DNA of 37,208 nucleotides from Myxococcales bacterium (GTDB lineage: Bacteria; Myxococcota_A; Polyangia; JAHFDS01): contig JAHFDS010000021.1 of assembly GCA_023248855.1 (NCBI GenBank), positions 1-37,208 on the forward strand, in the 5' to 3' direction. The position numbers and the translations under genes were made by a program. Numbering within the stretch: the first letter of the stretch is position 1; each line of letters starts with the position of its first letter. The notes beneath the pieces were generated by a model, which had not been told where the DNA came from, made no database searches, and was given only the letters and a program-made list of their open reading frames with translations. Below are positions 11,890-34,935 of this stretch, piece by piece.

Positions 11890-11942
11890 CGCTCGAATTC
11901 CCAACTTCCGATTGTCGATTTCCCAGGGTCTGCCATGCTGGG

Positions 11943-11948
11943 TATCGT
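11943..11948 (+). promoter_or_regulatory. candidate -10 (TATCGT)
   Basis: TATCGT ten bases before the GTG at 11959, predicting a leader of about four bases. The 69-base gap 11890-11958 is locally less GC-rich, as expected for a promoter. Confidence 0.3.
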
Positions 11949-11958
11949 GGTGTCTTAG

Positions 11959-12771
11959 GTGTCCGAAGCGATCGAGTCTCGCGAGCTGGCGAACGACCTC
12001 CGCGAACAGGCCAACGCCACCCGCGAGCAGCTCAACCAGGCGCGCGAGCGGGACAACCAGCTGCGAGAGCTGTCCCTCACGATGGCCGCCTACGACATGC
12101 GGCTGCCCATCAGCGCGATCGGGCGCGCCATCGCCAGGACCGCCGAGGGAGCGGCGCTGGACTCCGATGGCATCGCCACGCTGGCGCGATCTTCTCAGCG
12201 CCTCGAGCACATGATCGCGCAGCTGCTCGACTTCGCGGGCCTGCGCGCCGGCAACGCCATGTTCTTCGGCCGCGTCGAGGCAGACCTGGCCCAGCTGTGC
12301 ACCGATGTGATGGGAGACGTCACGCTCAGCCACCCGCGCTGCAAGGTCTCGTTCGAGGTCCGCGGCAACACCCGCGGGCGCTGGCATCCTTACCTCATCG
12401 GTCGCGTGGTCTCGAACCTGCTCGACAACGCCGTCCGGCACGGCTCCGACGCCAACGCCGACCTCGTGCTGTCGGACGCCGGCTCCGCGGTCATCCTCGA
12501 GGTCTCGAGCGCCGGGCCGGTCCCCGAGCGCGTGCTGCCGCATCTGTTCGAGCCGTTCCGGCGCGGGCCCGGGGCGGATGCGGTCGAGCGCGGCGGCCTG
12601 GGCCTCGGCCTCTACATCAGCAAGCAGATCGTGCTCGCGCACGGAGGCTCGATCCGTGTCGAGACAGACCAGCCGACGAAGACCACCTTCGTCGTCGAGC
12701 TCCCCCGGGTCAGCAACTCGGACCTGACCGCCGCGGGTGGTGCCGGCGCCACGAGGATGGGCACCCAATGA
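11959..12771 (+). CDS. histidine-kinase-like protein lacking the phosphoacceptor His
   Basis: 270 residues, soluble, with no membrane helix and no input domain. Residues about 3-40 form a charged coiled coil; 41-105 align with the HisKA dimerisation region; 110-255 form a HATPase_c fold with N-box NLLDNAVRH (Asn157), LPHLFEPFRRG and a full G2 box GLGLGLYISKQIVLAHGG (about 213-230). The H-box reads AAYDMRLPISAI: Tyr45 (TAC at 12091-12093) stands where the autophosphorylated His belongs. The G1 loop reads VSSAGPVPE instead of a DxGxG form, similar to the N/S-type loops of phytochrome-like kinases. The start GTG follows an in-frame TAG directly, which fixes it. The last bases overlap the next gene (ATGA). 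It may bind ATP but probably cannot autophosphorylate in the usual way. Confidence 0.85.
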   Translation: MSEAIESRELANDLREQANATREQLNQARERDNQLRELSLTMAAYDMRLPISAIGRAIARTAEGAALDSDGIATLARSSQRLEHMIAQLLDFAGLRAGNAMFFGRVEADLAQLCTDVMGDVTLSHPRCKVSFEVRGNTRGRWHPYLIGRVVSNLLDNAVRHGSDANADLVLSDAGSAVILEVSSAGPVPERVLPHLFEPFRRGPGADAVERGGLGLGLYISKQIVLAHGGSIRVETDQPTKTTFVVELPRVSNSDLTAAGGAGATRMGTQ

Positions 12772-12968
12772 ACCAGGTCTGCTCGCTGTGCGATCAATCG
12801 ATCGAGCGGGGCTCGAAGCACAACCTGCCCAAGGACGAGGCCCGGCGCAAGCGGCAGAGCTGCCCCTATTGCAGGGAGGTCGGGGTCCCGACCTGCCTGC
12901 AGGTGGAGGGCACACACTCGTTCCTGTGCGGTCGCTGCCGGGCGCGCTGGACGACGAAACCCGATTGA
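12768..12968 (+). CDS. small zinc-ribbon-like protein
   Basis: 66 residues. ATG overlaps the stop of the kinase-like gene (ATGA at 12768-12771). It has three CxxC pairs (C5/C8, C32/C35, C54/C57) plus C43 and His residues at 18 and 50, enough for two zinc sites. A basic stretch (DEARRKRQ) and the Arg-rich end (CGRCRARW) would suit nucleic-acid or protein binding. No family recognised. Coupled translation ties it to the His-less kinase-like protein. Confidence 0.7.
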   Translation: MNQVCSLCDQSIERGSKHNLPKDEARRKRQSCPYCREVGVPTCLQVEGTHSFLCGRCRARWTTKPD

Positions 12969-12980
12969 TCGAGGTGAGCC

Positions 12981-13250
12981 ATGGCGAGCAAGTCGATCAA
13001 GCAGAGCCCGCGCTGGTTGCGCGCCTGGACCACACGGAAGATCGGAGTGGGCACCCGTGTCGTGCTGCTTCGCGGCATGGAGGACCCCCATCCGGCGGGC
13101 GTCGTCACCGAGATCCGGATCATGCCCCACCTCAAGCGATTCGTGATTCTCGTAGACGGCGGCACGACCCGTTACGCGTCCGAGAACGACGTGGCCCTCG
13201 AGGGCGATCCGACGCTGGCGCCGCTTGGCCCCAGCATGCACGTCGATTAG
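12981..13250 (+). CDS. 89-residue unknown protein, third gene of kinase-like operon
   Basis: The ATG at 12981 has GAGGTGAG just upstream, 12 bases after the zinc-ribbon stop. A basic N-terminus (KSIKQSPRWLRAWTTRK) precedes a small all-beta-looking domain with glycine turns (VGTRVVLLRGMEDPHPAGVVTEIRI...RFVILVDGGTTRYASENDVALEG), reminiscent of small SH3-like barrels such as KOW domains, though I cannot assign it. Its TAG stop overlaps the TAA stop of the convergent exonuclease gene (shared TTAG at 13247-13250). Confidence 0.65.
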   Translation: MASKSIKQSPRWLRAWTTRKIGVGTRVVLLRGMEDPHPAGVVTEIRIMPHLKRFVILVDGGTTRYASENDVALEGDPTLAPLGPSMHVD

Positions 13251-33537: not shown

Positions 33538-34935
33538 GTGGCTCGCATCCTCCTGGCCGATGACGAGGTCAAGCTTGCGAAGTTCCTGGCCACCGTGCTC
33601 GAGCAGCAGGGGCACGAGATCGTGCGCGTCGAGGACGGCCGCGCGGCCCTGGCCGCGGTCGCCCAGGCGCCCTTCGACCTGGTCGTGACCGACCTCCGCA
33701 TGCCGGGTCTGGACGGCCTGGAGGTCCTAAAGGGGGTCAGAAAGCGCCCCGAGGCGCCCGACGTGATCGTCATGACGGCGCACGGCACGCAGCAGATCGC
33801 GGTGCAGGCCATGAAGGAAGGCGCCTCGGACTACCTCGTCAAGCCGGTCGCCGTGGACGAGTTCCGGGTCCGTATCCAGAAGATCCTCGAGCGGCGAGCC
33901 CTCATCGCGCGTGCGGACCGGCTCGAGCGGCAGCTCGAGGCGCGGGACGGTCTGTCGGGCGTCGTGGCCCGGAGCGAGGCCATGCGCGGCGTGGTCGCGT
34001 CCGCGACGCAGGTCGCGCGCACCGACGCGGCGGTGCTGCTGCTCGGCGAGAGCGGCACGGGAAAGAGCCTCCTGGCGCGGGCCATCCATCGCGCGAGCCC
34101 GCGCCGGGAGCACCCGCTCGTGGAGATCCATTGCGCGGCGCTGCCGGACGCGCTGCTCGAGAGCGAGCTGTTCGGACACGAGCGCGGCGCGTTCACGGGC
34201 GCCGACCAGACCCGGATCGGGCAGCTCGAGGCGGCCGCGGGCGGCACCGTGTTCCTCGACGAGATCGGCGAGATCCCGGCCGCCACGCAGGTCAAGCTGC
34301 TTCGCTTCCTGCAGGCGCGAGAGATCGTGCGGATCGGCAGCAGCCAGGCGCGAACGGTGGACGTCCGCGTCGTGGCCGCCACCAACCGCGATCTCGAGGC
34401 GGCCATCCGCGAGGGGCGCTTCCGCGAGGACCTCTACTACCGGCTCAGCGTGTTCCCCATCGTGGTGCCGCCGCTGCGCGAGCGCGCGGACGACATCCCC
34501 GAGCTCATCGCGCGGTTCCTGGCGACGCGCGGGCAGAGCAGCGCGCGGCTCGACGAGCAGGCGCGCGTGCGCCTGGTCAAGCACCGCTGGCCGGGCAACG
34601 TTCGCGAGCTCGAGAACGCGCTCGAGCGCGCGCTCATCCTGGCCGGCGACGGACCGGTCACCACGCAGCACCTGCCGGCGGGCACGCGCCCGGAGGCGGC
34701 CGTGCCGGGCTACTCGGACGTCCTGGTCGAAGGGTTCAACCTCGACGACTTCGAGCAAGGCATCCTCGCCTTCGCGCTCGCGCGCACCGGCGGCAACAAG
34801 GCGGCTGCCGCGCGCCTGCTCGGCATCTCGCGTCGCAGGCTGTACACGCGCCTCGCGCACCTGGACGGCGATGGGGCCTGCGAGGACGACGACGACACGC
34901 CTGATCCGGGCGTGCAGATCCGGCAACCACGGTGA
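33538..34935 (+). CDS. NtrC-family sigma-54 activator (response regulator)
   Basis: 465 residues from the GTG at 33538; a longer in-frame reading from 33496 adds 14 residues that do not belong to the receiver fold. Receiver domain 1-115 with acidic pocket D8/D9, phosphoacceptor D52, T80 and K102. The AAA+ domain (about 145-375) has Walker A GESGTGKS (170-177), sigma-54 contact loop GAFTGA (217-222), Walker B GGTVFLDEIGE, and arginine-finger region FREDLYYRLSVFPI. The C-terminal Fis-type helix-turn-helix (about 410-450) reads GGNKAAAARLLGISRRRLYTRL. All residues for phosphorylation and sigma-54 activation are intact. The next three genes follow with overlapping or near-abutting ends, and the last appears to be a sensor kinase, so this is probably one signalling operon. 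Confidence 0.95.
   Translation: MARILLADDEVKLAKFLATVLEQQGHEIVRVEDGRAALAAVAQAPFDLVVTDLRMPGLDGLEVLKGVRKRPEAPDVIVMTAHGTQQIAVQAMKEGASDYLVKPVAVDEFRVRIQKILERRALIARADRLERQLEARDGLSGVVARSEAMRGVVASATQVARTDAAVLLLGESGTGKSLLARAIHRASPRREHPLVEIHCAALPDALLESELFGHERGAFTGADQTRIGQLEAAAGGTVFLDEIGEIPAATQVKLLRFLQAREIVRIGSSQARTVDVRVVAATNRDLEAAIREGRFREDLYYRLSVFPIVVPPLRERADDIPELIARFLATRGQSSARLDEQARVRLVKHRWPGNVRELENALERALILAGDGPVTTQHLPAGTRPEAAVPGYSDVLVEGFNLDDFEQGILAFALARTGGNKAAAARLLGISRRRLYTRLAHLDGDGACEDDDDTPDPGVQIRQPR

Follow-up and report, generated by a model that had tools for sequence, protein, structure and literature searches.

We lean towards reading the gene at positions 11959-12771 (+ strand) of the window, by which we mean the whole 37,208-nucleotide stretch of DNA analysed here, as encoding a soluble, sensor-less pseudo-histidine kinase that acts by binding other proteins. 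Its product would retain the DHp hairpin and the ATPase-like CA fold and, with Tyr at position 45, would be unable to autophosphorylate on His. The nucleotide pocket is probably weakened by a change in the G1 box, where nucleotide binding would probably be weak because the residue is Ser184. Such a protein might use its DHp helices to pair with a second histidine kinase, or might dock a response regulator and leave it unphosphorylated, and could thereby tune a pathway encoded elsewhere in the genome. An earlier sequence-only reading had proposed an ATP-dependent switch or scaffold, or a kinase-dead partner, rather than a two-component kinase. The scaffold or kinase-dead partner is favored by the missing phosphoacceptor, the missing sensor and the missing neighbouring regulator, whereas the ATP-dependent switch is less likely because of the serine in the G1 box. 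A kinase-dead histidine-kinase-like protein would probably be of an already known kind, with the support here coming from a single genome.

The open reading frame and its predicted fold

The features discussed below are as follows.

11959-12771, + strand: histidine-kinase-like ORF of 270 aa, with a GTG start directly after an in-frame TAG
11962-12090, + strand: N-terminal helix without a sensor or membrane domain (AlphaFold helix 2-64; Pfam)
12091-12093, + strand: Tyr45 (codon TAC) replacing the phosphoacceptor His that relatives carry
12385-12387, + strand: His143 (codon CAT) replacing Asp ahead of the N-box helix
12415-12429, + strand: N-box with N153 and N157 intact, from alignment to relatives
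12508-12516, + strand: G1 box with Ser184 replacing Asn/Asp and Gly186 kept, from alignment to relatives
12601-12612, + strand: G2 box GLGL, intact, from alignment to relatives
12768-12968, + strand: cysteine-rich ORF of 66 aa, zinc-ribbon-like by eye, its start overlapping the kinase stop (ATGA)
12981-13250, + strand: ORF of unknown family, 89 aa, with GAGGTGAG ahead of its ATG

Direct reading of the sequence gives TAC (Tyr) as codon 45 of the ORF, and the H-box of the protein is MAAYDMRLPISAI. In sequence alignments Y45 falls on the phosphoacceptor His of relatives, so the earlier claim of a Tyr at the phosphoacceptor site, encoded by TAC at 12091-12093, is confirmed. The frame is open across 270 codons with normal coding composition (GC by codon position 0.711/0.485/0.915), and its third-position value is comparable to that of four neighbouring frames (0.865-0.976). 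No clear ribosome site could be seen by eye ahead of the GTG at 11959. Judged from the sequence, this and the position of the GTG right behind an in-frame stop leave expression unproved, which is a point against the reading as a pseudo-histidine kinase. A 7-codon frame (ATG ... TAG) at 11935-11958 lies in the same frame as the kinase and ends immediately 5' of the GTG start; it could be a leader, a chance occurrence, or the remains of a damaged original start. We also considered a frameshift-truncated upstream sensor and dropped it, since nothing domain-like could be seen by eye in any of the three frames from the preceding stop to the start codon.

A Pfam search matched HATPase_c at residues 147-250 with 75.2 bits (cut-off 26.4, E 6.9e-21), while HisKA at residues 40-97 scored 15.8 bits, under its cut-off of 26.9. 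The protein thus carries an HATPase_c domain and lacks a HisKA domain with a phosphoacceptor His; nor are the N, G1 and G2 boxes all intact, the Asn/Asp of G1 being Ser184. No sensor domain scored above the Pfam cut-off and the AlphaFold model shows no sensor or membrane part, bearing out what had been noticed from the sequence alone. In the AlphaFold2 model (mean pLDDT 83.6, pTM 0.72, with residues 206-210 under 50) a long helix at the N-terminus extends into the DHp hairpin (2-64, 69-96), and the CA domain is of the standard form. Its fold matches are ordinary kinases; HK853 (Z 21.6, rmsd 4.7, 214 aligned) is tied with DivL, 4q20 (Z 21.1, rmsd 5.7, 217 aligned). The model and its fold matches therefore have the fold kept, while catalytic residues are lost at Tyr45 and Ser184, as in a pseudo-histidine kinase.

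Catalytic positions compared with relatives

We compared the catalytic positions in two sets of relatives. The first, alignment A1, was picked by hand, mostly from the best matches, and contains 43 of the 130 relative loci fetched (L002-L131). Loci L068, L025 and L077 were left out for their stops, L058, L074, L086, L076, L079, L084 and L102 were also dropped, and L023 (with Ala at position 45) was never part of it. The wider set comprises all 131 loci (L001-L131) and yields 146 tblastn matches besides self, in 130 loci; its counts come from pairwise alignments, some possibly misaligned, with some loci giving more than one match and near-identical species counted apart.

Position 45 is His in 43/43 relatives in A1 and in 139/140 readable matches of the wider set, the remaining one being Ala and none Tyr (6 of the 146 matches do not cover the site). 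At position 184, where the window protein has Ser, 38 of the 43 aligned relatives have Asn and the other 5 Asp; Asn or Asp is found in 132/145 matches of the wider set, so that 13/145 depart, none of them with Ser. This changed G1 box had been overlooked in the sequence-only reading, which described the N-box and the G2 box as intact; for those two the alignments agree, with N153, N157 and the G2 glycines kept. Position 143, His in the window protein, is Asp in all 43 aligned relatives, but we rejected it as an invariant position, as the wider set has Asp in only 103/124 readable matches, with His in 4 (19 further matches have a gap and 3 do not cover it). Fourteen columns are identical across the 43 relatives, and the window protein keeps 12, including N153, N157 and the G2 glycines, departing at Tyr45 and His143. 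When each row of the 44-row alignment was left out in turn, the window protein departed at 2 otherwise invariant columns and the other 43 at 0 or 1. On these alignments the change that stands out is Tyr45; Ser184 is unusual too, and His143 only when set against the closer relatives. Since positions 184 and 143 both vary in the wider set, neither Ser184 nor His143 alone need kill a kinase.

The Asp/Asn of the G1 box contacts adenine in known kinases. The class relatives L012, L013, L014 and L016 share with the window protein a G1 box shortened by one residue (NAG-xVPPE or similar); the shortening is therefore not peculiar to the latter.

These counts bear on a further explanation, which we consider improbable: the kinase is functional and its His codon appears as Tyr owing to a single base, through faulty assembly or because a minority variant was captured. 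Tyr and His codons are one base apart, the assembly is in 724 contigs with 5.46% contamination, and the His143 and Ser184 departures have some precedent in distant kinases. Nevertheless, Ser184 and His143 also depart from all 43 aligned relatives and one error cannot cover both, so that with several positions changed a single base-calling error is a poor explanation.

To gauge how rare a Tyr at this site is, we inspected the HisKA matches listed for the same genome by eye and found His at the site in 69/69 (30 + 39). This count is biased in that PF00512 favors His; it includes 3/69 that score below the family cut-off and does not include the window protein. When a Tyr-type H-box was searched for as a codon pattern, which covers only some codons and may miss other Tyr kinases, 3 matches came up in 317 class genomes, and only that of the window sits in a kinase-domain frame. 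The other two (L204 and L205) were rejected as kinases and taken as chance because their frames are without a kinase domain (no Pfam match; aminotransferase). The His version of the pattern was matched in 227/317 genomes, its matches not each being checked as kinases, and a backward-read control gave 0 matches for the Tyr pattern and 10 for the His pattern. By these pattern counts, the Tyr-type H-box in the window is more than chance. A kinase core at L023:1501-2205 has Ala for the phosphoacceptor His (VAAEIGAPL; HisKA 27.9 against the cut-off of 26.9), making it another candidate pseudokinase.

Relatives and known pseudo-histidine kinases

The nearest relatives of the window protein are kinases with GHDLRNPL-like H-boxes from the same class (Myxococcaceae among the named genomes, every other genome in the relative sets being identified as "same class" only). 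Identity tops out at 41% in the 317 class genomes and at 41.7% for the single best tblastn match, and no search gave more than about 42%. The 59 relatives' genomes, the window's own included, yielded no orthologue, and neither did the 317 class genomes at a threshold of 1e-30. A search of 329 phylum genomes, partly overlapping the other sets, returned no match at 1e-38 besides the window itself, and the best 80 matches of a GTDB contig scan, which may omit records very near the window's own genome, held no orthologue. The lack of an orthologue in these sets counts against the pseudo-histidine kinase reading, since purifying selection, whether on the Tyr or on the gene, cannot be demonstrated. 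In a tree of 44 rows the window protein belongs to a clade of 39 (98/94) that is unresolved, and its end branch is the longest of all (1.36 against a median of 0.55), with no branch flagged as long by the tool. The long end branch may reflect either fast repurposing or relaxed constraint.

Relaxed constraint would suit a dying gene, that is, a sensor-less orphan kinase paralogue gathering substitutions at catalytic positions with no new function. We regard this as rather unlikely, if still deserving of weight: neither an orthologue nor conserved gene order was found, the end branch is the longest of the tree, conserved positions are changed, and the 7-codon frame places a TAG, in frame, immediately before the start. 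In contrast, the frame stays open for its 270 codons with a strong codon-position bias, the N and G2 boxes and 12/14 invariant columns are retained, and the stop overlaps the next ORF (ATGA).

Returning to the pseudo-histidine kinase reading, we compared the window protein with known systems. Searches of the open-access literature turned up few bacterial pseudo-histidine kinases besides DivL and ChrS. The best precedent is DivL of Caulobacter crescentus, which with its Tyr550 has no kinase or phosphatase activity, binds TNP-ATP weakly and binds DivK~P specifically; the authors of that work call its Tyr "unique" (PMC4211667). The window protein shares with DivL a Tyr at the phosphoacceptor site of an ordinary DHp-CA core and the same predicted fold, and by analogy kinase activity would be expected to be lost in it too. 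In contrast, identity to DivL is about 20%, and the window protein, at 270 aa with one long N-terminal helix, has no PAS match (Pfam, AlphaFold). Among solved structures searched with phmmer, the closest is the kinase core of a Pseudomonas aeruginosa bacteriophytochrome (9eut, 3.1e-25), while DivL (4q20, E 1.2e-8) ranks 25th among 44 distinct solved sequences; some of the higher-ranking entries, several in number, are constructs of one kinase. Because of this rank and the missing PAS domain we have not filed the window protein as DivL; by analogy it may work like DivL, but it would not be DivL by descent.

Closest by sequence are the 9eut core and the myxobacterial GHDLRNPL-type kinases found in the genome searches; unlike the window protein, these carry His. 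The best-matching relatives lie mostly in frames longer than 270 aa, with a few matches in frames of 267-319 codons.

The reported loss of activity in DivL also bears on the explanation that Tyr45 is itself phosphorylated, making the protein an ATP-dependent tyrosine autokinase or switch. A tyrosine kinase claim was reportedly made for DivL at first, in the title of a 1999 paper. For the window protein we find this explanation very hard to credit: the Tyr does stand at the phosphoacceptor site with the N and G2 boxes intact, but the G1 residue is changed, and DivL, as the precedent, lacks autokinase activity and binds nucleotide weakly (PMC4211667).

Control of a partner kinase, as the pseudo-histidine kinase reading would have it, is described for two other proteins. 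RetS is a hybrid kinase that acts through a partner kinase (PMC12189002), and the ChrS pseudokinase works by way of HrrS, its partner kinase (PMC9491836). As a point against the reading, heterodimers were seen with the native ChrS and not with the pseudokinase variant; that variant, ChrS_CA-fs, arose by laboratory evolution through a frameshift in the CA domain and keeps its His (PMC9491836). The likeness to the window protein would lie in the proposed control of a partner kinase instead of phosphotransfer of its own; the differences are that RetS is a hybrid kinase and ChrS_CA-fs retains the His, whereas the window protein has Tyr45. RetS is not known to carry a Tyr replacement at the phosphoacceptor site.

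As a more specific and only tentative proposal, which we think unlikely as it stands, the window protein could be a DivL-type repurposed kinase that arose independently and outside the alphaproteobacteria, serving as a stand-alone cytosolic adaptor co-translated with a cysteine-rich protein. The change of His to Tyr together with the loss of the G1 contact would then have converted a myxobacterial-type kinase core into an adaptor, and the small cysteine-rich protein could be its output or its partner. If this were true, a second, independently arisen Tyr-type core with an altered pocket would show that the adaptor route recurs. The importance of the window protein is conditional because it is known from a single genome, and it will matter only if orthologues or activity turn up.

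Neighbouring genes

The cysteine-rich 66-aa ORF (cysteines arranged CxxC...CxxC...C...CxxC) is likely translationally coupled to the kinase-like ORF because of the ATGA overlap between them. It matched no family above cut-off, and with E 0.001 as the threshold none of the 316 remaining class genomes (of 317) gave a match. The 89-aa ORF that follows is a possible third gene of the operon, and the kinase-like, 66-aa and 89-aa ORFs probably form one operon; scans for Sigma-70-type promoters and terminators found nothing. One relative of the 89-aa ORF was found in the other 316 class genomes; inspection by eye of the 3.2 kb retrieved there showed no adjacent kinase, and no conserved linkage of either neighbour to a kinase was seen in the class genomes.

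None of the neighbouring frames scanned contains a receiver domain. The only Response_reg match listed on the contig, with 150 of 219 candidates scored, is at 33547-33876, about 20.8 kb off, in agreement with the earlier remark that no response regulator adjoins the gene. The protein thus has neither a sensor region nor a cognate response regulator nearby; orphan kinases also stand without such a neighbour, and this feature is not a strict one. The distant match belongs to an NtrC-type response regulator at 33547-34932, with Response_reg, Sigma54_activat and Fis HTH domains.
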